Below are positions 26,731-64,000 of a stretch of 64,000 bases of DNA, one piece after another. Below the pieces are notes generated by a model. It was not told the origin of the DNA, did no database searches, and saw nothing but the letters and a program-made list of their open reading frames with translations. Position 1 is the first letter of the stretch, and the number at the start of each line of letters is the position of its first letter. The translations under genes were made by a program, and so were the position numbers. The stretch comes from Galerina marginata (Eukaryota > Basidiomycota > Agaricomycetes > Agaricales > Galerinaceae): NCBI GenBank assembly GCA_023014335.1, contig JAECYW010000021.1:744001-808000 (forward strand), given 5' to 3'.

Positions 26731-26818
26731 TCAACCACTCCAACATCGAAAAACCCCAGATCACTCTCTGCCACGTATACAATTCTCAGCTACTTTCAAC
26801 ATTCTATTAACACTGATC

Positions 26819-27634: not shown

Positions 27635-27639
27635 GTGTT

Positions 27640-28070: not shown

Positions 28071-28073
28071 TCG

Positions 28074-31803: not shown

Positions 31804-32047
31804 ATCGAGTTAAATAGTTAACCGCAGTACAAGTTTTGAGTTCTATGTACTGAAACAATAGAACTCGAGCCCAACTTCGACAGCGCAGCAGGATTTCTAT
31901 GTATTTGATACAAAGGAAATGAAAGTCGTCCAAAGAAATTGCCTTAGCAAAGTAGAACCGTGTATGAATACAACAGTTCCAACTTGAGCGAATTTCGTTG
32001 TATGCGATACAGACGAAATGGGTGGGCGACGACGGCGGGCGCTGCAG
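31804..32047. promoter_or_regulatory. Divergent spacer with three family-2 dyads
   Basis: Between transposase start and ORF A. Dyads at 31,834-31,863 (GAGTTCTA/TAGAACTC arms), 31,888-31,915 (ATTTC/GAAAT) and 31,989-32,020 (ATTTCG/CGAAAT), all centred on TATGTAN..GATACA-like sequence, plus a shorter one near 31,958 (AACCGTGTATG..ATACAACAGTT). Position suggests a shared promoter or transposase/accessory protein binding region; this is inference. Confidence 0.6.
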
Positions 32048-34868
32048 CTACCCAGCAGGACTGCGTTTAAATTCCGACTTGATCATGACACTATTCCTGA
32101 TCCTGACCCGTTGGTTCAAAAGCGGGGCAGCTCCAGTGAAGTGGTAAGCTAGTGGAGAGGCTTCCACTGAACCTTCTAGTCTGACCCATCCAAGGAAATC
32201 ACAAAGCGCATGAGAAGGGATGGTCCACCAAACCACAAATTGCATTCGGCAAATAGGGTCCTCAACCAGCTGACAGTGACTCAAAAGGAGCAACTCCTCC
32301 AACAGGAGACGCGGATGCGGGTATTCCAAGAAAAGCTCCAAAAGGAGCAGTCGAAGAAGATCGAAAAATTCCAGGAAGAGCTAGAAATGCAAGCACGTCA
32401 ATGGGAAGACAAGAGGACACGGGAATTGGACGCTAAGAAAGCGGCGCTTGATGAGATGACAAACGATGCTCAAGCAGTATTGAGGAGTGCTCAAGAAATG
32501 GGAAAGCAATGGGAGGCGCGAACAGCAAGCTTGAAGGAGAGTAGTGAGAGGGAAAAGGATTTGGAGTTAAAACTGGACCAGATAAAGGTGTGTTTCATTG
32601 AGCTTGATCGGACAATCTCAATTTATCTCCAGCCAGCATGATAAACAACGAGCGGTTGAGGCCGCTGAGCTTGCACGGAAGGAAAAGGAAAAAGAGGCGG
32701 CCCTTGCTCGGAAAAGGGAGGCTGAGGCTCTTGAAGCAACTAAGCTAGCTAAGGAAAAGGAAGAACAGGCGGTGCTTGCCCAGAAAAGGGAGGCGGAAGC
32801 AGAGGCGAGAATCCAGCAAATTGAAGTGAGTCAAATTAAAATTCTCTGCTTAGCCTTTACTAACGCCTCGGTAGCGAGAGAAGGCACAGGCTGTGAATGC
32901 GGTCGCCATTGCTGAACGACATGAACAGGCCGCAAAGGCAGCAATCGTGCGTATGGAGGTAATTTTAATCATAGTTCCATACTCGGATGGAAATTGACAA
33001 CCTGGTTAGGAGGAACGGAAAGCGGATGCTGAGAAGCTGAAGAAAGAGTGGAAGGACAGATTTGAGCGTCTTCGGGTGACTACTCTGGCTTGAACCAATC
33101 TTGAACATGATGATTGATGCTTGATGCAGGCAAGTAGCGAGCGCCAAATGGCAACATTGATACAAAAAGTCGAGCGACTCCATGGGCAACGAGTAGGTGA
33201 CTCGAGCATTTGCTGTCCATATCGATCAAGAAGTAGCAAGCGATAAGCATATGGGAGACGAAGTCATTGAAGAAGATGCAGGACGAGGACAATCTTCGGC
33301 CACATCATCCAAGGCACAGAATCCATCCATATCGGCCAATAAATTGGCTGGAGCCAACTGGAAGGAAATTAGACACAAGGAGGGGGCCAAAACATCGACT
33401 GTGTTGGTTGAAGCCTCTGTGGGTGTCATCATTCTATTGTCTTGTCGTGCGTTGCTGACAGAAAACAGGATGACGATAACGACCCCGTCAATGAAGATGT
33501 CGAAATGGACGACGTAGATGAGAGACGCCGCAAACGGCACGGCAAACGCAGGCAAACGGGCAGAAACGACGGTGGAGAAGGAGATGAGGAGAATAATGGC
33601 GACGACGACGACGACGACGATGACGATGATGACAGCAACACAAAATCGTCACGCATGACAAAGGAAGAATTCCAGGCGATGATTGGCGACGTTATGAACG
33701 ACCTTGCAAAAAGGTTGACCGGGATATCGATCCGGAAGGCCAAATTCACCAAAGGTCCCCAGAACTCTAAAAAGCCCACCAGCGCGTCTCGCAAAAGGTC
33801 TGCGAAAGGCCGACTGGAAGAGGAGAAGGATAACGATGAGACCTTTGAAAGGAAAAATTATCTCGTCAGTGATTTCCCGATTTATCTAGCCAGCGAATTA
33901 CTTACAAGGAATATAGAACCTTGCCCGACAAGTCAGGGACGACTGCTTCAGCGTCGATGCTCTCGAAGATTTTGCTCTGCACGACCCACCCGAGAAAGAT
34001 GCTGTTTGTCTCTACAACGACGGAAAAGGTCCAGGGCCAGATGCAGCGGATCTTCGCATCGACATGAGAGGAAAGATTTCGTCTAAATGGAATGTCCAAG
34101 TGCTTGACCTCATGGTTGACCTCATGCGCACCAAGTTGCAAACTGAGGCTTGGGAATCGCTTCCCTAACGCTCAGAGGCCTATCTTCGCGACCTTATCTA
34201 TGACCAAGTGCAACGTGCAAGGACAGTTTGGAAGGATGCCCAACCAAAAGTCAAGGAGGATGGGCAGATCGAAACCGTGAACGAGGTCGAATAGAGAATG
34301 GTCGCGAGGAAGAAGGAAGTGGGAATGCTTGGGCGCGCGACATCGAGGCGGATTAGTGTATGTGCTTCAATACCTCTTCTTCGGTGAAGCTGACGCATTT
34401 TTTCAGAGATACGCACGTCGCATCGAAATTATTGGGAAGACTATTGCGAGAAAAAAGGAGCGAGGAGACCCAGATGTCGAACTCTGGGAATATATGGAGA
34501 AATATTTCGAGCTGCTTGGAGATGAGGGTATGAGCTCGGACGAGAGCGACGTGGATGAGGCCGGAAATGAAGTTTACTACGTCATGGCAATGCCGTGGCG
34601 GCGCAACATCGAGGCGGAGCTGGAGATCGTCGACCGACAGCGGCGCAAGGACAAGGAGTTGTTCTCCAACAAGGGAGCAAAACCAGGGAGGAGGATACGG
34701 GACGGAAGGAAGAATTCCCGAAGGACACCGGCTCCAGAGCTCCCTAAGTCCCTCTACGAGAAAACCTGGTTTGCTGCTCTGTCGAATGAAGGAAAGGCCA
34801 AACTTCAGATCCGAAAGGATGAGTTCCATGTCAGGAAACTTCGACGCAGAGGCGGATCAGCTGCTTAG
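32048..34868 (+). pseudogene. ORF A (coiled-coil/acidic protein), left copy
   Basis: Blocks in order: truncated N-terminus (PSRTAFKFRLDHDTIPDPDP), GTAAGC intron, long coiled coil (32,210-32,580, LTVTQKEQLLQQETRMR), more coiled-coil exons (32,650-32,825, 32,875-32,957, 33,010-33,075), ASSERQMATLIQKVERLHGQ, then an acidic exon with eleven Asp in a row and MTKEEFQAMIGDVMNDLAKR (33,470-33,858), a block NLARQVRDDCFSVDALEDF to RRI (33,917-34,357) and the C-terminal exon with GMSSDESD and KELFSNKGAKPGRRIR. In-frame stops TAA 34,166-34,168 and TAG 34,292-34,294 replace Gln codons of the 9-kb copy, and the exon after HGQR has lost its acceptor. It may once have been a TnpA-like accessory DNA-binding protein, which is only inferred from context. 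Confidence 0.75.
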
Positions 34869-34970
34869 GAAGGAGGTGGTAGAATAATCGGTATTTAGGC
34901 GATACACAGTGAAGAAATTAAACATACCTGTTGTAAAGCTTGACTATGGAATGAATTAACAGTTCGAATC

Positions 34971-35612
34971 ATCACCGGAGAGGGCCAGGTGATAACCGTT
35001 TGCCGATGGCACCAGTGGTGCGGAATAAGTATCACCAGAGCTATCCAAGTGATATTTATCAACGTAAAACCCAATCCAGAGCGACCATTGGTTTGGAGGA
35101 GGGAAATCCGTTCATCGGACCTGTCCAGATGAACGGTGCTTGGTGGTTTCGGTCAAAGATACAGCCAGTTCATCAGAGCGATCCAGATGAACTTGGCTTG
35201 TAGGAAGGGAAGACATCGAGGACTTGGCCAAATGCGTCGTTTTGTTTGGCGACACCCTCGTGGCCAAACAATCAACCCGAATCATTTCTATTCTCAGTTC
35301 AACTTCCTCCGTCAAATCCACCACCACCACCAAGTCCAACATCACATCACTGACACTGCTGGGTATGCTTCCATCGCGTCAATTTCTTTGTGTTTTACAT
35401 CTTACTCACGTTGTTTTGCGTTTTCTTTCAGCCGTGCCCGCTTACCGCTGCAGCGCCCGCCGTCGTCGCCCGCTTAGTTCGTTTGTATCCCATACAACGA
35501 AATTTGCTCAAGTTGGCTAACGCTTGCAGCACCCGCCGCCGTCATTTTGTTTGTATTGCATACAACGAAACGTGCTCAAGTTGGAACCGTTGTATCCATA
35601 CACAGTTCTCCT
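34971..35612. repeat. Mixed dyad array between ORF A and ORF B (left)
   Basis: Family 1: 34,971-34,993 (ATCACC/GGTGAT), 35,030-35,054 (TATCAC/GTGATA), 35,108-35,136 (CCGTTCATC/GATGAACGG), 35,167-35,193 (AGTTCATC/GATGAACT); all have a central RGAGCNNTCCA-like 10-11 bp. Family 3: about 35,241-35,271 (TTGTTTGGC/GCCAAACAA). Family 2: about 35,477-35,510, 35,549-35,580 and 35,587-35,612. The array occupies the whole spacer upstream of ORF B. The mirror array is 54,603-55,244. Confidence 0.85.
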
Positions 35613-35698
35613 TCGCTCAGGCAATTCGCGTCCTATTGGCCAGGACTTTTCTGGTGTAGATAATCTGAAATTGTAGCTCCATCTCACAGTACTCAATT

Positions 35699-38600
35699 AT
35701 GTGTAAGTACTCACATTGATCTGACTACTTTATCAATTCTAACCTCCTCGATCTCTCCGTCTAGCCCTATCAACTGTCCCAAAACCGGCGTCATACTTTT
35801 TTCGCGATCGTTTACCAAACTACCAGATGATGTGTGATGGCCATGTCTTTACCTCCCCAAACCAAGAATCTTTGCCACATCCGCTTCCCCTTGATACTGA
35901 ACTTGGCCCAATGCCGTCTCCAGAAGAACTTCGATGTCGCGTTTGGGCAACACCGACCACCCCATATACCGCGTTCATCTTCAAAACGCCCTTATTTGGT
36001 CCTATGATGGGTCGCTTTGACAAATACAAGATCGAGAACGATGCTCATAACTGGCATTTGCCCCGAAACACCTGCAAATCGTGGAAGCGGTTTGAGCACG
36101 GCATGCGTGATGCTGCGGCGAAGCTATCGTCCCTTTTCTTTTCTACACACCCTGACTTTCGACCCTTCTGGGATATCCCTCAAAATCCTAGTTCCTACGG
36201 CTATTTCGATACCCATGATTCTGAACAAGCGGCTCTTGAAGCCGTCACTTCTTCAATTGACGGTTTCATCGTCTTTTCGGGATATCTATCCTTTCTTATC
36301 GCCCTCTGCCGGTTTTGTCCCCCATCCAGGGGCCCTTTACAAACCACAGCAGAGTTGTTTAAGTCTGCTGGCGTCGAAGTACACCCCGAGTGGATACAGG
36401 GTCTTCATGATTCGGGTATCGGCAATTTCAGTGTGGACCAACGGTCCCGCATAGGATTAATCGTCAAGATTTCCGATTGCAATTGGATCAACCTGGTACC
36501 CATTGTAATCAAGGCCAATGTCTCGGTTTGGCTCTTCTGGGGTAAACCGCCTTTCTCGATACCTCGGCAATCCTGGGTGTCAGACTTGGAACCAGCACCT
36601 TTTTGGACACCCTTGTCGACCCCGCCCGAGCATTCTTCCTCATCTGCGCCCAATCAACCCTCCTCGTCAATCCCAGGTGGCTTTCCTCCTGTTATACCTG
36701 GAAGCGGTCAGCGACCGGGGGAAACAATACGGGCATTTCTGGCGCGTCATAAAGAGAAAAATGCACGAACCCTTTTAGAGGAAACGAGGCAGGAGAGGCA
36801 GATACGATTGAATCGTCAGCTCGCGAATGCGAATCATCACAAACCTGGTAATAATGGTGCCAGAGTGTATCGCTGGGTGGACGTTGACGGATTTCGCATT
36901 AGAACCCTTCTTAATCGTGATTTGGTTGAGGAATACTGGTTCGAGTGGGGTAAATCGCAGCGGAGGTACGACGCTTTTTCAAACCAGTGGGACTGTTGCT
37001 CAGACCTACCGTCCGATTCCGATGACGAGGACGATTGTGTATCGGATGCTTCTTCCACAATATTGCCCATAAATACAAAACGAAGAGCACCTCAATTGAA
37101 TCAAAGATCATCTCCCCCTGTTAAGGCTACATCTGATGTGACAGTCAACACATCGTCTGTCGTTTCGCCGGAGGTTTCACTATCGTCTTCTCAATTTAAC
37201 CACATTGCCGCTCCGTCTGTCGAGTTCGGTTGCTCTGCAGACCTCCCGACCACCTCTTTCCCGATGCCACCTCCAGCTTCCTCTTCACCTCCCAGAATGG
37301 CACCTGATATGTCAGTTGATGCACCACCTGAGGTCTCAGTGGAAGATCCCCGGTACCTTCCGCACCGTGAGGTTCCTGGGCGAGTCTCGTCTTCCAGTGG
37401 CTCTTCATCGAGAGTTCTTGTCAGTAATGCACCACACTCGCCAGGTGTGGCACAATGTCCTCCAGCGCCTCCTCCAGTGACATCACACGCTTCTCTTCCA
37501 CCTCGTCGTACAACGCCTGATGTGGTACTTGAGCCGCTGGCTGAACAGGGGTACGATTCGAATGGTGCTCGTGTTGCGTGGTCAACAAACGACGACGACG
37601 ACAGCTATGACCCTCTCCGCACCTCAGTGGAGGACGTTATTGCAGTAAATCGCTCCACGCAAACTAAGCTCCCACCGCCGCCGTTTCAGTCTATCGAGGA
37701 TATTGTCTACTATAGATATGGCTTCGCTTTCAATGAAACTACATATGATGGTCTCCCACCATATTTTGATAAAGCCGAAAATCCCTTTAATCACTGGACA
37801 ACAGTCTGCCATGCTGTTGGTGGATATGGTCTCTCCTCGTCGACTGCCAACCACCGACCTATAACGGATTTCCTGGTGGCTCTGCTCAATTCCAAGCGTC
37901 CGTTCCATGATGTTCCTGGGATGTTCTGGGACTTGAGTCCTGCAAATGGCGAGCAGCTGAAGGATTTAGAGCCGAAGTGTCTTACTATTGAAGTCAAGGA
38001 GTTCCAAACCGGAGTCCTCTGCCTCCTCCACCCTCGTGCCTCAGACTCTGTAGAGAATCCACCGTGGGTGGTTGCTGTTCCACCTATAACTGCCTTGGAG
38101 TGTATTCGGCGCGACCTTGGACCTTCTTCGATTGACATCGCCGAGTATCTGATGGAGCAAGGGATGCCATTTAATACGTTACTTCCTTTTGAGCGTTGCT
38201 CAGGCTCATCTCATCGTCCGCCTCAACCTCTGGAACGCCCACTCCTGGGGGACCGGTCAGCTGGGCACAACTTTGACCGTGCTGATTCCGCGGCATATGC
38301 AACACTTCGGGACTCGTTTTTACTTGCTCAGCATAACAGTCGTCGGGCCCTTTCCTTTGGTGGTATCATTGCTCGCTTGGCCAGGAATGTCCTGCCAGAC
38401 TCCGATATTCTTGCCGGTCCCTCCTCGAGTGCACGCAGAGGAGAGCAAATACTTTTTATAAGTGGGCAGGAGACCATGGTTGATGATCAACTCTCGGAGG
38501 AGGAACTGGATTTGATATGTGGGACCTACAGAGTAGCAACTGGAAAGGGCGGTAGGTATCTCTATTACTGGCTGTCCTCCCACCTGACTAATCCCTGCTG

Positions 38601-38889
38601 TTTATTAGCCCAGACATCTATGTGCTCTTGGTTTCCTCGGGCTAATGTATGGGCATCCACTGGGTACAACGTCGGTTATTGGAATCGAGAATGCGAGGAT
38701 TGGTACATCAACCGAGTTGATTCCATACTGGACGGAACAGCGAAGCCATTAACTACACATCAATGGCGGCAGCAAATTCGAAAGAATAGGCAGGCACCAA
38801 AGCTCGTCTTCCAGATGAACAAGGTGGCAGAGGCGTATCTCCAATCTTCGCTAGCATCATCGTTTACCATTACCCCTATGTCGCATTAA
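35699..38889 (+). CDS. ORF B, large transposon-associated protein, 1042 aa
   Basis: Exon 1 is only ATGT (35,699-35,702), followed by a 62-bp GTAAGT..TAG intron and one long exon 35,765-38,889. The joined start reads MSLSTVPKPASYFFRDRLPN, a continuous and conserved beginning (also seen in the fragment at 6.9 kb), so I prefer it over the downstream ATG at 35,827. N-terminal third is globular (LGPMPSPEELRCRVWATP; WHLPRNTCKSWKRFEHGMRD). The middle has a Pro/Ser linker, a helical segment RQERQIRLNRQLAN and a YRWVDVDGFRIRTLL..YWFEWG block, followed by an acidic SDSDDEDD patch. The C-terminal half contains YYRYGFAFNETTYDGLPPYF and long helical parts. It recalls a large uncharacterised Agaricomycete family found near transposons. 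No catalytic motif recognised. This left copy has no stop or frameshift. Confidence 0.7.
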
Positions 38890-39000: not shown

Positions 39001-40489
39001 AGATCATAGATGACTTTTGAAGCAATCAATATCCGTGTCACGTGGAAATGCTTACGCTGCCAGTACCAGCGCAATCGTCGAGTGTCAAGTTTGATCAATT
39101 CCTTCGCCGAATCCCACTACCGCTCCAGGTGCTTCTCAATTGCGCTGTCTCCATCGCATCGTCGGCATCGATGATTTGTATCTTTATCATTTTGTTTCGT
39201 ATCTTACTCACATTATACGCGTTTATTTTCTGCTGTGCCCTCAGCGCCCGCTGTCGTTTCGCCCACCTATTTCGTTTGTATCTGATACAGCGAAATCACT
39301 TTTGAATGTCAGGATCTGATACATCGAACTCACCACTCATCGACCAGGATTTCTTTTGTATCGATACGCAGAAATCTTAGCCCCGTTCGCTGCTTTACCT
39401 ATCCGACGTTACCCCCTGGCTTCACCTCTGCACCAATTTCACTTTTTGTGCTATGTACCTCATGCAAACGAATTCAACCTTGGCGTGGCCGTTCGTCTTA
39501 TGGATGAACCCTCTCAGCGTCTGATCAACTATTCAAACACCTTATGCTCATCGGACAGGAAATGCCCGATCCTTCGACGTACGTTTTTTCCTTCATTTGA
39601 ACACTTTGTTACTCATAATTATCTCTTGCTCCTAGTCCTGACCCGATCGTACTGCGAGAAAATAACATTCAACACTGACAGCGGCTTCGTCGTGGCCACC
39701 GCCGCTCCAGGAGTCCAGGTACTTCTCAATGGCGCCGTCTCCATCGCACCGTCGGCGTCGATGGTATGTGTCTTTATTATTTGTTTTGTGTCTTATTCTA
39801 CTCACATCATACACGTTTACTTTCAGCTGTGCCTCCAGCGCCCGCTGTCATTTCGCCTACCTTCGTCTGACCAATGGTTCAGACACCTTATTCTCATGAT
39901 GGGTACGTGCGCTAGCATGGGCGGCAATGCCAAATCTTCCGAACATTCGCCCAACAAAGCATTGTATCAGATACATGCTTTTTAGAAGGCGGGCTCGTAT
40001 GTTGGTACCACCTCTGCCCATCAGTCTCGGTGTCTCCGTCGACATCGCCCGCTGTTTCCTACATCAGGGGCTCATCAGCCTCGATCTTATTCAGTAAACC
40101 AAATATGCTGCGGATTTCTTTTGTATATAATACACAAAAATTTGCACACACACTACCATTGGATCGCACAATTTATCGCTCGCCAACCGTGTCAGTTCGG
40201 CAGTGTACAAATTTCAGTTATACACACTGAGTTGGCATTGCGAACAATGGCATCCTCCCCGTTGGATCACCGTTGCCCCCGTAACTCCTTCGCGCTGATA
40301 CGCACTGAGTTGGGCTCTTCAACAGACCATCGCAGTTGACCGCGCTCTTCGACGCCAGGATCTTTATCCCGGATACTCCTCTCTTTTGTGTATGATCCAT
40401 TGAGACTGAGTTATCCCGGAAGCCGAGACTGCCGACCTCAAGGCATTTCCTATCCTTCAACAACCTCTCTTCGTCTATCCATGTTATTC
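38890..40489. other. Gene-free spacer with family-2 dyads
   Basis: No gene seen. Family-2 dyads occur at about 39,266-39,296, 39,350-39,376 and 40,106-40,135, separated by pieces that resemble each other (for example 39,120-39,250 and 39,715-39,850, which share ggtacttctcaat..gccgtctccatcgca type sequence), so the stretch contains an imperfect internal direct duplication. Confidence 0.55.
39115..39880. repeat. Imperfect direct duplication
   Basis: The block ccaggtgcttctcaattgcg through ctatttcgtttgtatctg (39,125-39,280) is related to 39,712-39,870 (ccaggtacttctcaatggcg and onwards, including the tctttatcatttt and cttactc words). Spacing is about 590 bp. Confidence 0.6.
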
Positions 40490-47645: not shown

Positions 47646-47714
47646 GACCAAAAACATCGACGCCAACGGCACGATGGAGACGTACCGGAGGATTGGTATT
47701 GATGGATTTGGAAG

Positions 47715-47796
47715 GTGGACTTAGAAATGTTCGCGTGATTTTGTTTGGCGACGGGGATGTCGCCAAACAAAATCACGCGAACATTTCTAAGTCCAC
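47715..47796. repeat. Perfect 38-bp hairpin, 6-nt loop
   Basis: Arms 47,715-47,752 and 47,759-47,796 are exact reverse complements; loop is ggggat. The inner part of the arms is TTTTGTTTGGCGAC, the same word as in the shorter family-3 dyads at 25,669 and 35,241. Confidence 0.95.
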
Positions 47797-47829
47797 GATT
47801 TCTTCCCTCCCTAATACTATACAAGCCAC

Positions 47830-48207
47830 GTTCATCTAGACCGCTTTGATGAACTGGCTTCGTCTCTGGCCGACACCACCAAGCACCGTTCATCTGGACA
47901 AGTCCGATGAACGGTTTCGTCGTCGTTACATCTCTAATCCAGTCAAGATGCTGAATCTCACTGCACTGGACCACTCCAATGCACTGGCGCCGGTCTCTGA
48001 CTCTCGTCGATTTCACGATGTAGCATTCATCTGGACAGCTCTGATGAATCGTCGTCGTTACGCCCTCTAGTCCAGTAAAGGTACTGAACCTCTCTCCGCC
48101 AATCTTATTGTTGTCCGTGCTGAAATCTATTCCCTTTTCTTAGCCTATTTGTCTTGGATCGTTAGCAATGCCGACAACGGTTATCACATGGATGGCTCCG
48201 GTGATAA
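47830..48207. repeat. Family-1 dyad array, five copies with different arms
   Basis: 47,830-47,854 (GTTCATC/GATGAAC), 47,885-47,915 (ACCGTTCATC/GATGAACGGT), 47,963-47,984 (TGCA/TGCA), 48,025-48,049 (ATTCATC/GATGAAT) and 48,181-48,207 (TTATCAC/GTGATAA). Centres are of the form TGGACNNNTCC or close. Confidence 0.85.
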
Positions 48208-48389
48208 TCAGATCTATGCCTCCCCATTTTCATGTTCTATCTCTTACGAGTCAGGTATGTTCGCTTCATTCACATCATATCAAACAAAAATCCTAATTCC
48301 TTGGCCGTGGTCATTCTGTAGAGTCCCAATGCGCCTCCCAACTTCCGTCGCCGCTCTTCTTGTTCCAAGTAGTGAACCGGAAGCCTCTG

Positions 48390-51139: not shown

Positions 51140-53601
51140 CAGTGGTGGAGGCAGGGTTAAATTTGAGAAGCATGTATCATTAATGAGCCCAAAAACATTG
51201 CGAGAGATTATACAATATATGATACAAATTAAGGCGGCTAAACGACAAGATTTAATGTGACATGGGAGTAACGGTAAACGATGATGCTAGTGAAGATAGG
51301 AGATACTCCTCTGCCGCCTTGTTCATCTGGAAGACGAGCTTTGGTGCCTGCCTATTCTTTCGAATTTGCTGCCGCCATTGATGTGTAGTTAATGGCTTCG
51401 CTGTTCCATCCAATATGGAACGAACTCGGTCGATGTACCAGTCCTCGCATTCTCGATTCCAATAACCGACGTTATACCCAGTGGATGCCCATACATTAGC
51501 CCGAGGAAACCAAGAGCACATAGATGTCTGGGCTAATAAACAGCAGGGATTAGTCAAATGGTAGGTCCCACATATCAAATCCAGTTCCTCCTCCGAGAGT
51601 TGATCATCAACCTTGGTCTCCGTTCCACTTATAAAAAGTATTTGCTCTCCTCTGCGTGCACTCGAGGAGGGACCGGCAAGAATATCGGAGTCTGGCAGGA
51701 CATTCCTGGCCAAGCGAGCAATGATACCACCAAAGGAAAGGGCCCGACGACTGTTATGCTGAGCAAGTAAAAACGAGTCCCGAAGTGTTGCATATGCCGC
51801 GGAATCAGCACGGTCAAAGTTGTGCCCAGCTGACCGGTCCCCCAGGAGTGGGCGTTCCAGAGGTTGAGGCGGACGATGAGATGAGCCTGAGCAACGCTCA
51901 AAAGGAAGTAACGTATTAAATGGCATCCCTTGCTCCATCAGATACTCGGCGATGTCAATCGAAGAAGGTCCAAGGTCGCGCCGAATACACTCCAAGGCAG
52001 TTATAGGCGGAACAGCAACCACCCACGGCGGATTCTCTACAGAGTCTAAGGCACGAGGATAGAGGAGGCAGAGGACTCCGGTTTGGAACTCCTTGACTTC
52101 AATAGTAAGACACTTCGGCTCTAAATCCTTCAGCTGCTCGCCATTTGCAGGACTCAAGTCCCAGAACATCCCAGGAACATCATGGAACGGACGCTTGGAA
52201 TTGAGCAGAGTTACTAGGAAATCCGTTATAGGTCGGTGGTTGGCAGTCGACGAGGAGAGACCGTATCCACCAACAGCATGGCAGGCTGTTGTCCAGTGAT
52301 TAAAGGGATTTTCGGCTTTATCAAAATATGGTGGGAGGCCATCATATGTAGTTTCGTTGAAAGCGAAGCCATATCTATAGTAAACAATATCCTCGATAGA
52401 CTGAAACGGCGGCAGTGGGAGCTCAGTTTGCGTGGAGCAATTTACCGCAATAACGTCCTCCACTGAGGTGCGGAGTGGGTCATGGCCGTCGTCGTCGTCG
52501 TGGTGTGTTGACCACGCAACACGAGCACCATTCGACTCGTACCCCCGTTCAGCCAGCGGCTCAAGTACCACATCAGGCGTTGTACGACGAGGAGGTGGAA
52601 GAAAAGCATTTGATGTCACTGGAGGAGGCGCTGGAGGACATTGTGCCACACCTGGCGAGTGTGGTCCACTACTGACAAGAACTCTCGATGAAGAGCCACT
52701 GGAAGACGAGACTCGCCCAGGAACCTCACGGTGCGGAAGGTGCTCGGGATTCTCCACCGAGACCTCAGGTGGTGCATCAACTGACATATCAGGTGCCATT
52801 CTGGGAGGTGAAGAGGAAACTGGAGGTGGCATCGGGAAAGAGGTGGTCGGGAGGTCTGCAGAACAACCAAACTCGACAGACGGAGCAGCAACCTGGTTAA
52901 ATTGAGAAGACGATAGTGACACCTCCGGTGAAACGACAGACGATTGGAAGACGGGAGAGAGTGCCGGCGCTCAACCGTTCCAGCCAAAAGGCGTCTTTTA
53001 GGACTGGTCATTGACCAGTCCTGCCGGCACTATATATGGAAGTGAGCACCAGCCTTACAACGATGGGTTGACTGTCACATCAGATGTAGCTTTAACAGGG
53101 GAAGATGATTTTTGATTCAATTGAGATGCTCTTCGCTTTGTATATATGGGCAAGATTGGCCGACGACGGTGTCCAAAAAGGTGCCGGTTCCAAGTCTGAC
53201 ACCCAGGATTGCCGAGGTAACGAGAAAGGCGGTTTACCCCAGTGGAGCCAAACCGAGACATTGGCCTTGATTACGATGGGTACTAGGTTGATCCAATTGC
53301 AATCGGAAATCTTGACGATCAATCCTATGCGGGACCGTTGCTCCACACTGAAATTACCGATACCCGAATCATGAAGACCCTGTATCCACTCGGGGTGCAC
53401 TTCGAAGCTAGCGGACTTAAACAACTCTGCTGTGGTTCGTAAAGGGCTCCCGGACGGGGGACAAAACCGGCAGAGAGCAATAAGGAAGGATACATATCCC
53501 GAAAAGACGATGAAACCGTCAATTGAAGAAGTGACGGCTTCAAGCGCCGCTTGTTCAGAATCATGGGTATCGAAATAGCCGTAGGAACTGGGATTTTGAG
53601 G
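51140..53601 (-). repeat. Inner diverged inverted repeat, right side
   Basis: Counterpart of 36,177-39,000 with many substitutions and the indels described for ORF B right copy. It ends at 51,140 where flanking sequence becomes unrelated. Confidence 0.85.
52945..53059. mobile_element. 115-bp MITE-like insert with nested hairpins
   Basis: Absent from the left copy. Flanked by ACGAT on both sides (52,940-52,944 and 53,060-53,064), consistent with a 5-bp target duplication. Ends are weakly inverted (TGGAAGAC / reverse TGTAAGGC). Inside, GTGCCGGC (52,961-52,968) pairs with GCCGGCAC (53,023-53,030), and GGACTGGTCA (53,001-53,010) pairs with TGACCAGTCC (53,012-53,021). Confidence 0.65.
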
Positions 53602-54038
53602 GATAGCTCGAGAATAAGCATCGAGAGCGTCACGGAACCAATTGATCTGCAAATAGAGGACGCCAATGGAGCACCAGAAAGTTGGGTTGCGTCCATCTCG
53701 GTAGACTGCTTGTTGATATGCTTCGTAGGCTTTGTTGTATTTTTGACCAGCTATGTATCCTCGGCCAAGGAGATACCAACTTCGGGCATCGGACGGATCT
53801 AAGCGGTAGGTCTGTTAAGTTGTCCACAAGCTGACGTGTCATACCCAAACATACCAGCTTCGAGGCTCTTGGTAAGATATTGTATGACTAGCTCCTGATT
53901 CTGGGAGGAGCCGCCTTCTTGATAGAGCCAGCCAAGTTGTTGAAGGACTTTGGCATGTCCTGGCATGTCCTTAGTTCGCTTCGACGACGCGCTCGTATAA
54001 GAAAGACATATTTACGCTCCGCTCCTAACGCCATCAAT
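53602..54038 (-). pseudogene. Captured Cyc8/Ssn6 TPR gene fragment
   Basis: On the minus strand: GHAKVLQQLGWLYQEGGSS, then NQELVIQYLTKSLEA, an intact 57-bp intron (GTATGT..GCTTAG), then DPSDARSWYLLGRGYIAGQK, YNKAYEAYQQAVYRDGRNPT and CSIGVLYLQINWFRDALDAY. This is the TPR region of the general transcriptional co-repressor Cyc8 (Ssn6), a partner of Tup1. The kept intron shows capture at the DNA level. The upstream side is damaged: ggacatgcca is tandemly duplicated and a stop precedes GHAK. It interrupts ORF B between FWDI and PQNPS, with GGGATAT at the left and CTATCCC at the right junction. Confidence 0.9.
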
Positions 54039-54602
54039 ATATCCCAGAAGGGTCGAAAGTCAGGGTGTGTAGAAAAGAAAAGGGACGATAGCTTCGCCGC
54101 AGCATCACGCATGCCGTGCTCAAACCGCTTCCACGATTTGCAGGTGTTTCGGGGCAAATGCCAGTTATGAGCATCGTTCTCGATCTTGTATTTGTCAAAG
54201 CGACCCATCATAGGACCAAATAAGGGCGTTTTGAAGATGAACGCGGTATATGGGGTGGTCGGTGTTGCCCAAACGCGACATCGAAGTTCTTCTGGAGACG
54301 GCATTGGGCCAAGTTCAGTATCAAGGGGAAGCGGATGTGGCAAAGATTCTTGGTTTGGGGAGGTAAAGACATGGCCATCACACATCATCTGGTAGTTTGG
54401 TAAACGATCGCGAAAAAAGTATGACGCCGGTTTTGGGACAGTTGATAGGGCTAGACGGAGAGATCGAGGAGGTTAGAATTGATAAAGTAGTCAGATCAAT
54501 GTGAGTACTTACACATAATTGAGTACTGTGAGATGGAGCTACAATTTCAGATTATCTACACCAGAAAAGTCCTGGCCAATAGGACGCGAATTGCCTGAGC
54601 GA

Positions 54603-55244
54603 AGGAGAACTGTGTATGGATACAACGGTTCCAACTTGAGCACGTTTCGTTGTATGCAATACAAACAAAATGACGGCGGCGGGTGCTGCAAGCGTTAGCC
54701 AACTTGAGCAAATTTCGTTGTATGGGATACAAACGAACTAAGCGGGCGACGACGGCGGGCGCTGCAGCGGTAAGCGGGCACGGCTGAAAGAAAACGCAAA
54801 ACAACGTGAGTAAGATGTAAAACACAAAGAAATTGACGCGATGGAAGCATACCCAGCAGTGTCAGTGATGTGATGTTGGACTTGGTGGTGGTGGTGGATT
54901 TGACGGAGGAAGTTGAACTGAGAATAGAAATGATTCGGGTTGATTGTTTGGCCACGAGGGTGTCGCCAAACAAAACGACGCATTTGGCCAAGTCCTCGAT
55001 GTCTTCCCTTCCTACAAGCCAAGTTCATCTGGATCGCTCTGATGAACTGGCTGTATCTTTGACCGAAACCACCAAGCACCGTTCATCTGGACAGGTCCGA
55101 TGAACGGATTTCCCTCCTCCAAACCAATGGTCGCTCTGGATTGGGTTTTACGTTGATAAATATCACTTGGATAGCTCTGGTGATACTTATTCCGCACCAC
55201 TGGTGCCATCGGCAAACGGTTATCACCTGGCCCTCTCCGGTGAT
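54603..55244. repeat. Mixed dyad array between ORF B and ORF A (right)
   Basis: Exact mirror of 34,971-35,612, containing the same family-1, family-2 and family-3 dyads in reverse order. Confidence 0.85.
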
Positions 55245-55346
55245 GATTCGAACTGTTAATTCATTCCATAGTCAAGCTTTACAACAGGTATGTTTAATTT
55301 CTTCACTGTGTATCGCCTAAATACCGATTATTCTACCACCTCCTTC

Positions 55347-58167
55347 CTAAGCAGCTGATCCGCCTCTGCGTCGAAGTTTCCTGACATGGAACTCATCCTT
55401 TCGGATCTGAAGTTTGGCCTTTCCTTCATTCGACAGAGCAGCAAACCAGGTTTTCTCGTAGAGGGACTTAGGGAGCTCTGGAGCCGGTGTCCTTCGGGAA
55501 TTCTTCCTTCCGTCCCGTATCCTCCTCCCTGGTTTTGCTCCCTTGTTGGAGAACAACTCCTTGTCCTTGCGCCGCTGTCGGTCGACGATCTCCAGCTCCG
55601 CCTCGATGTTGCGCCGCCACGGCATTGCCATGACGTAGTAAACTTCATTTCCGGCCTCATCCACGTCGCTCTCGTCCGAGCTCATACCCTCATCTCCAAG
55701 CAGCTCGAAATATTTCTCCATATATTCCCAGAGTTCGACATCTGGGTCTCCTCGCTCCTTTTTTCTCGCAATAGTCTTCCCAATAATTTCGATGCGACGT
55801 GCGTATCTCTGAAAAAATGCGTCAGCTTCACCGAAGAAGAGGTATTGAAGCACATACACTAATCCGCCTCGATGTCGCGCGCCCAAGCATTCCCACTTCC
55901 TTCTTCCTCGCGACCATTCTCTATTCGACCTCGTTCACGGTTTCGATCTGCCCATCCTCCTTGACTTTTGGTTGGGCATCCTTCCAAACTGTCCTTGCAC
56001 GTTGCACTTGGTCATAGATAAGGTCGCGAAGATAGGCCTCTGAGCGTTAGGGAAGCGATTCCCAAGCCTCAGTTTGCAACTTGGTGCGCATGAGGTCAAC
56101 CATGAGGTCAAGCACTTGGACATTCCATTTAGACGAAATCTTTCCTCTCATGTCGATGCGAAGATCCGCTGCATCTGGCCCTGGACCTTTTCCGTCGTTG
56201 TAGAGACAAACAGCATCTTTCTCGGGTGGGTCGTGCAGAGCAAAATCTTCGAGAGCATCGACGCTGAAGCAGTCGTCCCTGACTTGTCGGGCAAGGTTCT
56301 ATATTCCTTGTAAGTAATTCGCTGGCTAGATAAATCGGGAAATCACTGACGAGATAATTTTTCCTTTCAAAGGTCTCATCGTTATCCTTCTCCTCTTCCA
56401 GTCGGCCTTTCGCAGACCTTTTGCGAGACGCGCTGGTGGGCTTTTTAGAGTTCTGGGGACCTTTGGTGAATTTGGCCTTCCGGATCGATATCCCGGTCAA
56501 CCTTTTTGCAAGGTCGTTCATAACGTCGCCAATCATCGCCTGGAATTCTTCCTTTGTCATGCGTGACGATTTTGTGTTGCTGTCATCATCGTCATCGTCG
56601 TCGTCGTCGTCGTCGCCATTATTCTCCTCATCTCCTTCTCCACCGTCGTTTCTGCCCGTTTGCCTGCGTTTGCCGTGCCGTTTGCGGCGTCTCTCATCTA
56701 CGTCGTCCATTTCGACATCTTCATTGACGGGGTCGTTATCGTCATCCTGTTTTCTGTCAGCAACGCACGACAAGACAATAGAATGATGACACCCACAGAG
56801 GCTTCAACCAACACAGTCGATGTTTTGGCCCCCTCCTTGTGTCTAATTTCCTTCCAGTTGGCTCCAGCCAATTTATTGGCCGATATGGATGGATTCTGTG
56901 CCTTGGATGATGTGGCCGAAGATTGTCCTCGTCCTGCATCTTCTTCAATGACTTCGTCTCCCATATGCTTATCGCTTGCTACTTCTTGATCGATATGGAC
57001 AGCAAATGCTCGAGTCACCTACTCGTTGCCCATGGAGTCGCTCGACTTTTTGTATCAATGTTGCCATTTGGCGCTCGCTACTTGCCTGCATCAAGCATCA
57101 ATCATCATGTTCAAGATTGGTTCAAGCCAGAGTAGTCACCCGAAGACGCTCAAATCTGTCCTTCCACTCTTTCTTCAGCTTCTCAGCATCCGCTTTCCGT
57201 TCCTCCTAACCAGGTTGTCAATTTCCATCCGAGTATGGAACTATGATTAAAATTACCTCCATACGCACGATTGCTGCCTTTGCGGCCTGTTCATGTCGTT
57301 CAGCAATGGCGACCGCATTCACAGCCTGTGCCTTCTCTCGCTACCGAGGCGTTAGTAAAGGCTAAGCAGAGAATTTTAATTTGACTCACTTCAATTTGCT
57401 GGATTCTCGCCTCTGCTTCCGCCTCCCTTTTCTGGGCAAGCACCGCCTGTTCTTCCTTTTCCTTAGCTAGCTTAGTTGCTTCAAGAGCCTCAGCCTCCCT
57501 TTTCCGAGCAAGGGCCGCCTCTTTTTCCTTTTCCTTCCGTGCAAGCTCAGCGGCCTCAACCGCTCGTTGTTTATCATGCTGGCTGGAGATAAATTGAGAT
57601 TGTCCGATCAAGCTCAATGAAACACACCTTTATCTGGTCCAGTTTTAACTCCAAATCCTTTTCCCTCTCACTACTCTCCTTCAAGCTTGCTGTTCGCGCC
57701 TCCCATTGCTTTCCCATTTCTTGAGCACTCCTCAATACTGCTTGAGCATCGTTTGTCATCTCATCAAGCGCCGCTTTCTTAGCGTCCAATTCCCGTGTCC
57801 TCTTGTCTTCCCATTGACGTGCTTGCATTTCTAGCTCTTCCTGGAATTTTTCGATCTACTTCGACTGCTCCTTTTGGAGCTTTTCTTGGAATACCCGCAT
57901 CCGCGTCTCCTGTTGGAGGAGTTGCTCCTTTTGAGTCACTGTCAGCTGGTTGAGGACCCTATTTGCCGAATGCAATTTGTGGTTTGGTGGACCATCCCTT
58001 CTCATGCGCTTTGTGATTTCCTTGGATGGGTCAGACTAGAAGGTTCAGTGGAAGCCTCTCCACTAGCTTACCACTTCACTGGAGCTGCCCCGCTTTTGAA
58101 CCAACGGGTCAGGATCAGGAATAGTGTCATGATCAAGTCGGAATTTAAACGCAGTCCTGCTGGGTAG
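55347..58167 (-). pseudogene. ORF A, right copy
   Basis: Mirror of the left ORF A, including both shared stops (now 56,048-56,050 and 55,922-55,924 on the minus strand). In addition it has its own stop: AAG to TAG at 57,856-57,858 inside the first coiled-coil exon. The C-terminal exon with SSDESD and FSNKGAKP remains open (55,886-55,347). Confidence 0.8.
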
Positions 58168-58411
58168 CTGCAGCGCCCGCCGTCGTCGCCCACCCATTTC
58201 GTCTGTATCGCATACAACGAAATTCGCTCAAGTTGGAACTGTTGTATTCATACACGGTTCTACTTTGCTAAGGCAATTTCTTTGGACGACTTTCATTTCC
58301 TTTGTATCAAATACATAGAAATCCTGCTGCGCTGTCGAAGTTGGGCTCGAGTTCTATTGTTTCAGTACATAGAACTCAAAACTTGTACTGCGGTTAACTA
58401 TTTAACTCGAT
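58168..58411. promoter_or_regulatory. Divergent spacer with family-2 dyads (right)
   Basis: Mirror of 31,804-32,047 with the same three dyads between the ORF A and transposase starts. Confidence 0.6.
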
Positions 58412-61400
58412 ATGCCTGCTCGAGGCAATGCAGTTTTTCAGTGCCTTTGTCAAGAGTGCACAAGTTCCGGCCCTGTTGGACCCGATGGTAGATCTTTAGG
58501 CAAAACGCTGAAAGCATCGGAGCGTATCGCTCACCTCAATCGTGTCAAGCTTGAAACTGAGCAGTCTCGCCTCGCGGCCGTTCGTGAAGCCGCGTCGTCT
58601 CTTTTCGCCGATACTTTAGCGGACGGCGGCCTCAGTACCGAGAGACAACCCAGTAAACTATGGTTTCACGAGATGAATATCAACGATCGTGCCCAGTAGT
58701 ACCTGCGGCTGCTGAACCCCCTCCCCTCAACGACATTCTTGCCGGCATTCAGAATCTTCAGATTTCGGACCCGTCTCCCCAGGCTGGCGATCTCCTGCAT
58801 CTTGCCCCCGACATTATATCCCAGAACACCGAGAATGATGACCAGCCCCCTCCTCTGATCAAGATGAAGAGTCGTTTGGAAAAACGCGAGGGAAATCGCA
58901 AGACCGAGAAAGCACACCTGGCCCTCAAAGCCATCCAGGAGCGCGCTGAAACATGTTCTGCCAAACTTTTGTCGCCCTCATCTGAGACTCTGACCCACGT
59001 GGAAGCCGAACTGATTCACGAACTGATTCAACTGCAAGTGTCTCTTAAGAGCGTTACGCGCAGTGTCCATTCAGTCATCACGGCGAAAGCCACCGTTACT
59101 AAATTTGTCGCCGATCTTCACGACCGCTTCGTCGAAGTTCGGAAGGCAATACCTGTGGATGAAAGCGTACCACTTCTGTTCAAGTCTGGTAAGGTTTTCC
59201 TGCAGACATGGTTGGAAATTCTTCTTATTTGTGCTTCCACAGATCATCACTTTAATATGCCAATTGATCGTCATGACCAGGTCGCCCAGATAGCCATGTT
59301 CATTTCAGTCGTCTGCGCAGTCATCATGGGCGCCAGTCGCCGCATGGGAGATTTTATCCTGGGTCTGCTCTCAGTAATGCTTCGCTGCGCCTTTCGGGAT
59401 CCATCAGGAAGTTTTACCATCAATCAACAGTACATTATCGACCAAATACCCCTTACCCTCGAACCCGCATTGGCTAGATTTAACTTGGAGCCCATGACTG
59501 TTGCCAACGCAGTTTGTCCGAGTTGTCACTGCACATACCCCCCCACCTTTGCTCTAGGGTCAGCTGTCCCCTCATATCCTCGTGAATGCAGTAATCGCCC
59601 CACTCCTGACTCGGATATTTGCAAGACGGCCCTTTCTGAACCTGACGAAGGCGCCAAACCTTTGAAAACTGTTATCTATCATAGTTTCCACGACTATCTC
59701 GGGGGACTCATATCACAGGGAGATCTGGAAAACATGGCGGATCGTACCAATGACGACTTGATGGCGTCGATCAATAGGGGTGAACCGGTTCCGGCCTACG
59801 TTACCGATATATCTCAAGCGGAATTCATTCGTACCTTCAAAGGTCCGGATGGGAACCGCCTCTTCGTCGATAGGCCCGGTACTGAAGGCCGTTACCTTTT
59901 TGCAATCAATGTTGATTTTTTCAGCGCTGAAGGTTCGACACCCAGAGGAGCCTCTGCATCTTGTGGGATAATATCGGCGGTGTGCCTCAGCCTCCCTTTC
60001 AGTGTTCGCTACAAGCCCGAGAATATATATGTCGCGTGTGTTATCCCTGGCCCAAATGAACCACACAATACAGAACTTAACCACTACCTTCGTCCGGTAA
60101 TTGACGATTTCTTGGTTTCTTGGGAACGCGGCGTACACTTTTCACGCACGGCCAACTACCCCAATGGAAGACTAACTCGCTGTGCAATAGCTTTGTCCGT
60201 CAATGACCTTCCAGCTGCACGCAAATTCAACCAATCGGCAAATCACAGCAGTAACCATTGCTGCAGCCGCTGCCGCTGCTATCATCAAGATACTCTCGGG
60301 AGGACCGATGTTGAAGCCGCTGATTGGAAACCCAAAGACCGGGATCAGCTTCGTCGTCAAGTCGAGGCTTGGAGAGATGCCCCTACTGTCAGAGACCAAG
60401 AAAAACTTTTTCAAGCGAACGGTATCCGATGGTCTGAAGTATGGCGCCTTCCGTATTGGGATCCACCCCGTATGTTGGTCGTCGACTCAATGCACTGTCT
60501 TTTGTTGGGCCTGGCCCAGTTTCATTTTCGGGATGTCCTTTGCCTGAGGGAAGTAACAGAAAAGGCAGAATTTGTCCCTGCTTTCGAACACAAATTCACA
60601 GAACCAGGCAAGGATTTCAAGGATCGGAAAGATGTATCTGAGAACGATTTGAAGCACATCCCTCACATCCACAGACGCCTATTGGAACCGATAGAGGGTC
60701 AAGATGAGCCGAATACCAAAACCTTAGAAGACAATCTGAAGACCTTGGAACGCCGTCTCTCTTCGAAAAACTCCAAAGCACTCGAATTTGTTTCTAGCAG
60801 CCTTGGCCTAAAGCTGCCAACAACCATACGTGCGAGTAAGGCTTCCTATGTAAAGCTCCTGATGGATTGGGTATGTACCCATAAGTTGTGGTCTCGATTC
60901 AAGCTAACCCTGTTATCTCTCAGCGGAAGATGCATCCATATACAATGCTCAATGCACCTGTCAAATTCGGGACTCCAGAAGTCATGGACCATATCCGAGC
61001 AGTCATTCGTGATATGGCTACTCCGTCTTGGCTTCCCTCTGTCCCACGTAACTTTGGCTTGCCAGCTGCGGGTACGCTAAAGGCGGATGAATGGCGAACC
61101 TTGGCCACTGTTTACCTTCCTGTTGCTCTTATTAGCACATGGGGAGAAGGTAGTGTTCATTCGGTTGCTTTGTCGTTGCGTCAAGCCCTTGACCACACAA
61201 TGGCACTGGTCTCTGCCATCACATTGGCTTGTATGCGCACGATGACTGAAGCTCGATCGAACGCCTACCTGACACACATGAAATTCTGGCTACACAACCT
61301 TACGGTCCTTCATCCTGACACTAAACCCCGTGTCAACTGCCATATGGTGCTCCATATCTTTGACTTCTTACGCCTGTTTGGCCCTGTACGTTCCTGGTGG

Positions 61401-62141
61401 TGCTTCCCATTTGAACGTCTGATTGGCCAGCTGCAGCGTCTTCCTCATAACCATAAATTTGGTAAGTCTATTTTATCGCAATTAAGAATCAACCTGACTC
61501 TTTTGTAGGTGAATTGGAAGCCACCATGCTCACCTATTATTCGAAGGCTGCGAAGTTGAAGCACTGGCTCGCCCGTCCAAATTGCCCACCGTTTATCAAG
61601 GAATGCAAGACTCTATTCGACAAATTTGCCGGTAATGCTATGCGCACATCCGACAACGACGACATTGCCGACTCTGCTTACCTGCCCGTTCCCCCTGCCT
61701 TGAAAAACATCTTCCATGATCCTAAAGTAGCGCTACGGGCCCGCCACCAGTCTAATGGCGTCTTCTTTTCCCGTTCAAGCACACATGTCGGCAACAGTCT
61801 TATCATGTATCGCCCAGATGGCAAGATGTCAGGCGCCCTTGTTCCTGCTTCCATCGAGTACATTGTCGCACAGCGGAATGGTCAACTTGACTATGTCGTT
61901 CGCCAACAACTACCTGCTGCTCCGGGGTCTGTCGACCCATTTCGCCATTATCCTCACTTTCCGGCAATGGTTTATTCCCCAGCCCTATCGCCTGAGCTCT
62001 TCCGTATTCGTCCTGAGTGGGTCGTATCACATTGTGCTCGGTGGAACTTAGATGATACAAGAACTGTTGTTCTTACTCTTTCCCGTGTATGTTTTTCACT
62101 CATTTGCTTTTGGGATATAAACTCATTCTTCTTAGGACTAA
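58412..62141 (+). CDS. tnp2: CACTA-type (Tnp2/CMC) transposase, right copy
   Basis: Exons 58,412-58,652, 58,697-60,870, 60,924-61,461, 61,509-62,086 and 62,136-62,141; 1178 aa, identical in translation to the left copy. The 44-bp first intron (GTAAAC..CCAG) joins RQP to VPAAAEPPP in frame. All motifs described for the left copy (CPSCHCTYPP, FAINVDFFSAEG, VVDSMHCLLLG, FGPVRSWWCFPFE) are present. Two identical open transposase genes in opposite orientation mean the locus could still supply transposase, if expressed. Confidence 0.87.
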
Positions 62142-62580
62142 CGACATTGGTGGTTCTGTGTCATTCTCGCTTTGGTACCCAGCTGTGTGGTTCTATCTAA
62201 ATGTACTATTACTCTGTATACAATTTCTTTTCTAGTACCGAGGACATTCTATTTGTGTGATTATTAAGTGAATTCTCTGTTCTAAATGTCAAGTCAGTAC
62301 ATTATAAGTTTTGTAGTCTACAATTGAGCAGCCATACAACTGGCTGCAACTGAGTGGTATTGGCCTTTATTACGGGTTCTGCTGGTCCATCATAGGGCTC
62401 GGCAGGTTGTCATAGACTTGACTGGTCCGTTGTTGCGATTGTTACGATTTGACATCTATCTACGTCTACAGGAGACTCAGGTTACACTAAAAAGAATAAC
62501 CTCGATAGACCAAGTGGTTGAGTGAATATGTGTGAATATGGTGCGGAAGTGTAAACGTTCATCCTTCTACAACCTAACAC
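62142..62580. other. 3' region between convergent genes (right)
   Basis: Mirror of 27,635-28,073; no gene seen. Confidence 0.4.
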
Positions 62581-63396
62581 TCAAAAAGAGAGGCTGGAGG
62601 GGGTACAAGGGCGAAAACCATTGGGGTACATATAATATGACCGTGATACTGGGTGAATAAGGGTTGAAAAGCTAATGCTTGGGTTTTTGTCGTCTGATTC
62701 GGGGGGTTGACCGGGTCTGCGTTTTTTGAGAGAATTGCGAAGAGCTCTGTAGCACCAACCTCCACGGTAGCAGGAGTCTGTAACATCTTCGATTTGGCCA
62801 TGATAAAGTGTTGCTGTTTCGTCAATAGGGAAATGAGTGCAAATTTCGACCATTAGTGGTGGTGGAGTGGTGGGACGGGATGGTGGTGCAGTACTAGGTG
62901 TCAGACTCGGTGTCGGAGGGGGTGAAATAGGTGTAGACGGGCGAGACTCGAGCTCGAGATATGTAGGATTGAAATCGGAGGTAATGTTGTGTACATGAAC
63001 ACGAAGTTTGAATGAGGATTTCACAGCTGGTTCTCGAACCATTAGGGTGAGCAACACTGGTTGGGGATCCTTGTTAAGTTGTTCAAGTGCAACAGAGATC
63101 TTGTGGACCTCAGCGCGCAGAACAAACAAAGCACATCGTTGCTCTCTGATCTTGTGAGCATCGTCGGTTAGTCTATACATTTTCTCCTCGAGGGCCTTGA
63201 ACTGAGTTAGCTGCTTTTCCCTTGCTGTAAAGTCCTTCCTCCATAAGCGAAAGCGAGCACATGAGGCGTTGGATGTTGGAAGGTTTGGGCGATAGTGAGG
63301 AAAGATACTGATACGACGTATAGATTTCCATGTTCTCGAAGGCGAACGGCGTTCAGGAAGTGGAAGACGAGGTTGAAATGGTGGGCAAAAGAACAT
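62581..63396 (-). CDS. Uncharacterised 271-aa ORF (right copy)
   Basis: Identical translation to 26,819-27,634: short charged helix, Pro/Thr-rich linker, no recognised domain. Confidence 0.5.
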   Translation of the reverse strand: MFFCPPFQPRLPLPERRSPSRTWKSIRRISIFPHYRPNLPTSNASCARFRLWRKDFTAREKQLTQFKALEEKMYRLTDDAHKIREQRCALFVLRAEVHKISVALEQLNKDPQPVLLTLMVREPAVKSSFKLRVHVHNITSDFNPTYLELESRPSTPISPPPTPSLTPSTAPPSRPTTPPPLMVEICTHFPIDETATLYHGQIEDVTDSCYRGGWCYRALRNSLKKRRPGQPPESDDKNPSISFSTLIHPVSRSYYMYPNGFRPCTPSSLSF

Positions 63397-63484
63397 GATC
63401 AGTGTTAATAGAATGTTGAAAGTAGCTGAGAATTGTATACGTGGCAGAGAGTGATCTGGGGTTTTTCGATGTTGGAGTGGTTGA

Positions 63485-64000
63485 AAATGGGATTTTAGTG
63501 TGTGTACGGAACCTCACTAGGACGGCCTAATGGTACTGAGCTTACGATGATGCTGACGACGACTGTCGAGGGCCCGGAGCTCGACAGGTGGCCGGAACAG
63601 CACCAGCGGGTAAGGTGGTGGTGGTTGTTGTTGTACATTGTTCCGTGATCATGAAGCGCGAGTAAAAGGATAGAGGACAGAATCGGGATGCGGGGCGGAA
63701 AAGGGTGTAAACCATTCGACGTAGGCTAGACGATTGGGTAAACGAGTGTGACGGAGGTGCTCTGGAAGACTTGCTCAAAAATCGAAGTCCTACGGATTGC
63801 ATTGGATATTTGAACGAGAGATTCCAGGATGACTAACTGACCTTCCAAGCAGGCCCCTTGGGTATGTTGATTCTCCCTGGCGTCCGCCATGCGTACGAAC
63901 ACAGTATCAAAATATGCGGGTAGTGATTTAGATCGACCTTTGGCTGGAACTAAAGGCGTCGCTCGAAGTCGTTCGACGGATTTCGTAAATCCAGGTGCTG
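63485..64000 (-). pseudogene. TE-associated protein remnant (right copy, cut by window)
   Basis: Mirror of 26,215-26,730 with the LAYVEWFTPF block near 63,720. Its 5' part lies beyond the window. Confidence 0.5.

Follow-up and report, generated by a model that had tools for sequence, protein, structure and literature searches.

The nearest precedent for the structures described here comes from soybean, where the subterminal motifs of the CACTA element Tgmt* form 14 stem-loops (2 at the left end and 12 at the right) and differ between families (PMC2613891). The soybean elements Tgmt*/Tgm1 and the present locus share a tnp2-type transposase and, close to either end, arrays of motifs in direct and inverted orientation that can form stem-loops, in unequal numbers at the two ends, whereas the soybean stem arms carry the repeated motif and here a centre is common to several classes of dyads, with arm classes that differ within one end (PMC2613891). 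Additionally, the host here is a fungus, and the CACTA termini and target duplication of Tgmt*/Tgm1 were not found at this locus. In maize En/Spm, subterminal repeats are bound by the element-encoded protein TnpA (PMC2613891), and a similar protein would be expected here to read the repeats near both ends. Unlike in maize, no homologue of TnpA was identified at this locus, and the reader protein is putative. The motif bound by TnpA in maize is 12 bp long.

In fungi, EnSpm and Plavaka have been described as transposons of the CMCT clade, with Plavaka present in Agaricomycotina; the account gives their termini and target duplications, and the word "subterminal" occurs 0 times in its text (PMC12730594). 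Among the open-literature matches listed (titles and abstracts), none described fungal elements with a shared centre and class-specific arms. Outside transposons, template switching within hairpins yields loop inversion together with arm repair, and the compensatory multi-base changes and inverted loops it predicts are of the kind seen in a 38-bp palindrome of this locus; the published cases are rRNA genes (PMC8794818), and the process may extend to dyads of 7-10 bp such as those considered here. The minute hairpin inversions of plastids (cited in PMC9653739) are similarly short and lie between palindromic flanks that form a miniature stem-loop, but the DNA is that of an organelle and no transposon is involved.

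The window, that is, the whole stretch of 64,000 nucleotides of Galerina marginata DNA that was analysed, is part of contig C14 in a genome of 69.3 Mb and 43 contigs. All five of the dyads that a preliminary description had placed in the 47.8-kb array are present, four in regular register and the fifth (D3) in a shifted one, and the other places that it named also hold dyads (Table 1). It gave about 17 distinct dyads; our own count, mirror copy excluded, is 17 places and 16 distinct sequences in the window. Each site is an inverted repeat that could fold into a bulged hairpin made up of arm, one unpaired T, GGA, a 4-nt loop, TCY and arm. We distinguish three arm classes by our own lettering, namely A (GTTCATC/GATGAAC), B (TATCAC/GTGATA) and C (GGTCCTA/GAGGAC). 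Class A lies nearest to the flanking hairpin and class B further inward in the arrays E1R, E4 and E2, while class C builds arrays at 23 kb and, among relatives, on C17, C14 and C12, those on C17 and elsewhere on C14 being longer. In every array with a flanking hairpin (E1L, E1R, E2, E2' and E4), all of the asymmetric centres point away from the hairpin, inward. No class B dyad was seen at the left end of the transposase segment, and neither a class A dyad nor a hairpin at 8478-8563. D3 pairs poorly in register in all three of its copies (E4, E2 and E2'), with the E2 copy pairing in the shifted register, and in D4 of the C40 copy a T:A replaces the innermost C:G pair. A search for phage relatives of 47700-48300 found none.

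Table 1. Coordinates of the dyads, hairpins and coding features in the window.
Feature	Position	Strand	Remark
Class B dyads D5, D6 of related copy	8478-8563	+
Class C dyads: three GGTCCTA-CAGAYNGCTCT-GARGAC and one GTCCTCGTGATGCTCCGAGGAC	23058-23271	-
Second-family dyads (centre GTATnnnATAC)	24481-25343, 31901-32010, 35485-35602, 39278-39974		e.g. near 25.33, 31.9-32.0, 35.48-35.6, 39.28-39.36 and 39.96 kb
Imperfect hairpin, equivalent of that at 35242-35271	25668-25699		opposite end of segment
Two class A dyads (25768-25792, 25854-25881) with truncated duplicate between	25768-25881	+	opposite end of transposase segment
Transposase open frame, PF02992 Transposase_21 (tnp2)	29138-31558	-
Gene with coiled-coil-like and acidic/basic segments, several open frames	32180-34865	+	last exon: six homologues
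Dyads D6, D5 (class B) and D2, D1 (class A)	34968-35194	-	starts ~100 bp past last exon of plus-strand gene
Hairpin TTGTTTGGC-12-GCCAAACAA	35242-35271		outside D1
Perfect 38-bp palindrome, 6-nt loop GGGGAT	47715-47796		outer side of 47.8-kb array
Dyad D1, class A, arms GTTCATC/GATGAAC, centre TAGACCGCTTT	47830-47854	+
Dyad D2, class A, perfect 10-bp arms ACCGTTCATC/GATGAACGGT, centre TGGACAAGTCC	47885-47915	+
Dyad D3, arms TGCA/TGCA, shifted register TGCA-C-TGGA-CCAC-TCCA-A-TGCA	47962-47983	+	weak member
Dyad D4, class A, arms ATTCATC/GATGAAT, centre TGGACAGCTCT	48025-48049	+
Dyad D6, class B, arms TTATCAC/GTGATAA	48181-48207	+
Mirror copy of 34.97-35.27 kb array	54944-55247	+	own hairpin 54944-54973; inside the 9,962-bp inverted repeat

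The arrays and hairpins flank a transposase segment of 9.6 kb, at 25.67-25.88 and 34.97-35.27 kb. The open frame within it matches PF02992 at 1.4e-07 (31.4 bits against a cut-off of 28.6), the tnp2 match characteristic of CACTA/EnSpm elements, and has 92 homologues, PF02992 being listed for 84 of these; the genome holds at least 72 matches to the transposase family, 66 of them above the cut-off. One tnp2 frame lies in each arm of an inverted repeat (26215-36176 and 54039-64000; 9,962 bp at 99.98% identity), and the right-end array has six copies in the genome. Class A dyads are inverted around the transposase (25.77-25.88 kb on the plus strand against 35.11-35.19 kb on the minus strand), the arrangement of CACTA subterminal repeats, which suggests that the arrays may be transposon ends. 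No CAC..GTG termini were recognised, and an inverted similarity between 25041-25598 and 39639-39146 had no clear end. Comparison of copies, whose flanks are shared as larger duplications, gave neither target duplications nor an empty site that would fix the limits of the element. "Subterminal" is used here on the strength of symmetry, copy number and transposase. We consider the chances about even that the dyads are subterminal repeats of CACTA/EnSpm-type (tnp2) transposons, palindromic through folding-based recognition, hairpin-templated copying or both. Against this view stand the missing termini and target duplications, together with the near-invariant arms of classes A and C, the relatives with kept arms and altered centres, the weak pairing of D3, the mostly one-sided changes within classes, the small number of independent class changes and the lack of class B at the left end. 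A candidate transposon protein would recognise the conserved middle TCnnn-YRGAYnGCTCYG-nnGA; the recognised form would need paired arms, i.e., a hairpin or cruciform, and hairpin-templated copying during replication could keep or reset the arm match.

The excess over chance lies in the arms and not in the centre alone. Taken by itself, RGAGCNNTCC is mildly enriched in the window, with 10 matches against 4.84 +/- 2.12 expected and 10 or more in 3 of 100 shuffles, and a genome-wide search for TGGAYNGCTCYG, with one loosely defined letter at each of its ends, yielded 94 matches, the reversed control 56. As judged by eye, class A arms accompany about 16 of the 94 matches and almost all of the rest lack arms; the mild enrichment of the centre together with the unpaired state of most genome matches makes the paired sites look confined to these elements. 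A scan for the centre only (12-base consensus, at most one mismatch, pairs scored at arm positions 2-7) returned 20 distinct sites in the window, of which 12 had 4-6 of 6 Watson-Crick pairs and 8 had 0-3; when 19 further loci, a selection from 98 of which most were picked as relatives, were included, the corresponding numbers were 29/45 and 16/45. Among the 14 regular-register dyads of the window, 78 of 84 cells pair, compared with a mean of 55.0 and a maximum of 72 over 5000 swaps of right arms, and for 36 regular-register dyads the sum was 189 of 216 (swap mean 141.8, maximum 164; 5000 swaps). This larger set covers neither the three D3 dyads nor E4 D6, E5 D5, E2' D6 and the C11 sites with other centres, nor the site at 23250 with its 10-nt centre, the truncated 25.8-kb duplicate and several class C variants (L093-L095). 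The centre-only scan and the arm-swap controls rule out a chance origin of the dyads.

Comparison of the arm classes showed where pairing is kept and where it is not. The mean number of Watson-Crick pairs out of 6 was 4.8-5.8 for arms of the same class and 1.9-3.7 for arms joined across classes; since pairing is high within a class and collapses on a cross-class swap, the proposition that pairing is kept while the letters change is true between classes. In classes A, B and C, respectively, the pairs are T:A, C:G and T:A at position 2, A:T, A:T and C:G at position 3, and T:A, A:T and G:C at position 6, with C:G at position 4, T:A at position 5 and mostly G:C, T:A and G:T at position 7. The independent class changes are few in number. 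Within classes (14 class A, 4 class B and 18 class C distinct sites), classes A and B show no variation at arm positions 2-6, and class C has one deviating site each at positions 3, 4 and 6; this constancy of class C is partly due to selection, as sites were admitted to it by a left-arm GT at positions 6-5 and class C letters in one arm, and 15 of the 18 were also recovered by the centre-only scan, which has no such filter.

Most arm changes within classes are one-sided. Positions 1 and 7 of class A contain eight non-Watson-Crick cells (three T:G, three C:C, one T:T and one A:C) and three cells changed on both sides (one T:A and two A:T), all three from D4 and thus from one lineage, D4 of E2 and its C40 relative. 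Position 8 of class C is C:G in 8 sites, T:G in 6 and T:A in 4, and never C:A. Arm swaps within classes, in which kinship is not removed, are weak controls: class A has 98/112 paired cells against a swap mean of 91.7 (p 0.0018), and the values for classes B and C are p 0.17 and p 0.066. The preliminary description had called the arms interchangeable, each changing to match the other, and this is borne out across the three classes, where complementarity outlives the letters, but not inside them, where arms are nearly fixed and changes rarely find a partner. Similarly, arms no more complementary than mutation of one ancestral palindrome would leave are largely what is seen within classes, but not between them.

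The centre, for its part, is less constant than the arms at some sites. At the C11 locus, class A arms surround the centres TGGCTCC, TGGTCTGCTT and TGGTCAGTACT besides the usual one, these centres differing in length (7, 10 and 11 nt) and occurring in both orientations within one 3-kb locus. Arms are likewise kept around a shortened centre in E4 D6 and E5 D5, which with the 7-nt C11 site makes three relatives with arms kept and the centre lost or shortened; in E2' D6 it is the right arm that is lost. These changes under kept arms indicate that the inverted repeat, and not the centre alone, is stable overall. Because positions 2-6 are nearly invariant within a class and C11 keeps its arms while the centre changes, interchangeability of the arms was overstated. 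The suggestion of selection for a hairpin or cruciform with a recognised loop is strengthened by the pairing kept between classes and weakened by the C11 arms kept under changed centres.

The near-invariance of arms within classes and the persistence of class A arms at C11 around changed centres could also be explained if these were ordinary double-strand palindromic binding sites, in which a dimeric transposon protein contacts two inverted half-sites, with a different half-site (A, B or C) for each transposon lineage, and folding is irrelevant; matching of the arms would then follow from recognition of both halves by one and the same monomer. The argument that binding-site repeats would keep their arm sequence does not tell against such sites, as classes A and C do keep theirs at positions 2-6, and subterminal motifs of CACTA elements are described as diverging between families while staying repeated (PMC2613891). 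On the other hand, A and B occur in the same ends, some 50-130 bp apart, and would both have to be accepted by a single reader, and the centre, a mere spacer on this account, is nevertheless common to A, B and C. We regard ordinary binding sites as a serious but somewhat unlikely explanation. If it holds, the stem-loop subterminal repeats of soybean CACTA elements have a fungal counterpart in which divergence of motif classes is seen.

A second, unrelated dyad family, with the centre GTATnnnATAC, occurs beyond the same hairpins, on their outer side, as well as upstream of the transposase. The window holds 16 distinct centres of this family; at the best offset, 5 or more of the 7 arm positions pair in 15 of them and 6 or more in 11, compared with 13% of random positions reaching 5 pairs and 2% reaching 6; the summed pairing of 92 was attained in 0 of 5000 swaps (mean 71.5, maximum 91). 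By eye, about four arm types (ATTTCG, ATTTCT, AAAGCAT and GGAACCG) surround the one centre. This family is an independent case that strengthens the point, made in the preliminary description for the first family, that the arms match. It also speaks against ordinary binding sites, given that clearly different arm pairs surround one centre within ~110 bp (35485 and 35592).

Compensation between classes would also be expected of RNA hairpins, were the arrays transcribed and the hairpin active in a transcript read inward from the end. The non-canonical pairs of the inward strand are G:T in 8 position-by-class types against A:C in 3, which leans toward a single-stranded inward form, although this difference is not significant (one-sided binomial ~0.11, by hand) and the cells are not independent; over positions 1-8 there are 34 G:T cells against 4 A:C cells, 18 of the 34 representing one fixed position of class C. 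Outside the dyads, six comparisons with imperfect masking of class C dyads gave totals of 141 C/T and 123 A/G transitions, a near balance between strands that does not parallel the G:T excess. Of the two strands, the inward one forms the more stable fold at 17/18 class C and 4/4 class B sites, but at just 6/14 class A sites, with 2 ties. Furthermore, intron-like signals were seen by eye inward of the class C array. Such signals had raised the suspicion that the 35-kb array is the promoter of an inward gene, a possibility weakened by the plus-strand homologues of the neighbouring gene. Codon-position counts alone are ambiguous on the strand of that gene, and its scanned frames had no Pfam match at the curated cut-off; the six homologues of its last exon indicate that the plus strand is coding, and since the gene ends near 34865 the array lies just past its 3' end. 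The gene with homologues is thus coded on the other strand, toward the array, which argues against an inward transcript. There is little compensation within classes, and the window gave 0 Rfam matches, so no known RNA family is indicated there. An RNA structure, one of the explanations raised at the outset, appears quite improbable to us.

The 38-bp palindrome beside the 47.8-kb array bears on how matched arms may arise. Its C12 and C14 copies differ at 7 sites in 3,196 bp, and 6 of these differences are the loop, which is inverted to ATCCCC in C12. The loop of the C40 copy, ~81% alike over the neighbouring 0.8 kb, also reads ATCCCC, and the loops of the related E1R and E4 hairpins (GAGGGT and GAGGAT) resemble the C14 orientation, which implies at least two loop inversions, provided that there is no assembly error. 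The outer arms of E1R and E4 are alike (27) and dissimilar to their own inner arms (11 and 9.5). In the comparison of the palindrome, which rests on its C12 and C40 copies, the C12 outer arm scored 18.5 and 16.5 against the E1R and E4 outer arms and 18.5-24 against their inner arms (a tie for E1R), and the C40 outer arm 12.5 and 12.5 against 20.5-26. The outer arm of the palindrome thus looks like a copy of its inner arm, the trace expected of hairpin-templated template switching. Repeated template switching within hairpins, also proposed in the preliminary description, gains from this loop inversion and outer-arm likeness in the neighbouring palindrome, and for the short dyads it may be suggested by extension. 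That it is the whole explanation, with template switching making or restoring matched arms, a fold without function and a centre simply inherited, is very improbable despite the loop inversion and likely arm rewriting next door, as the centre keeps a single orientation within each of the E1, E2, E4 and class C arrays whereas the palindrome flips, and is kept across classes of differing arms, unlike under drift.

Returning to subterminal repeats that are palindromic through folding or copying, a more specific version would have the ends of these DDE transposons read as folded hairpins in which the bulged loop is recognised and the arms need only pair, leaving the arm letters free for hairpin-templated rewriting, in two unrelated motif families placed back to back around a flipping palindrome. 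We put this forward as a conjecture that is rather unlikely to hold in full. To our knowledge, mobile elements whose ends are recognised as hairpins are few, and should it be pairing, not sequence, that is conserved here, CACTA-type elements would be added to their number, and searches for binding sites based on sequence would miss sites of this type. The near-identical copies with an inverted loop would provide a naturally occurring example of hairpin-templated mutation in nuclear DNA.

Several further features of the region were recorded. The inverted repeat continues as pieces of 92-94% identity out to ~39.0 and 51.1 kb, and an open frame with tetratricopeptide repeats lies at 53095-53814. 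Pieces of the element recur at similar spacing, some of them reversed, at 601-848 kb of C14, 4138-4424 kb of C12 and 1140-1191 kb of C16, so that the three contigs appear to carry duplicated or allelic versions of a single region. An open frame of 1048 aa at 35743-38886, whose 1020-aa ATG form has no Pfam match, has 10 homologues, four of which are named (Agrocybe, Psilocybe, Arthromyces and Steccherinum), while Grifola is named for one of the 92 transposase homologues; all five are mushroom-forming fungi.
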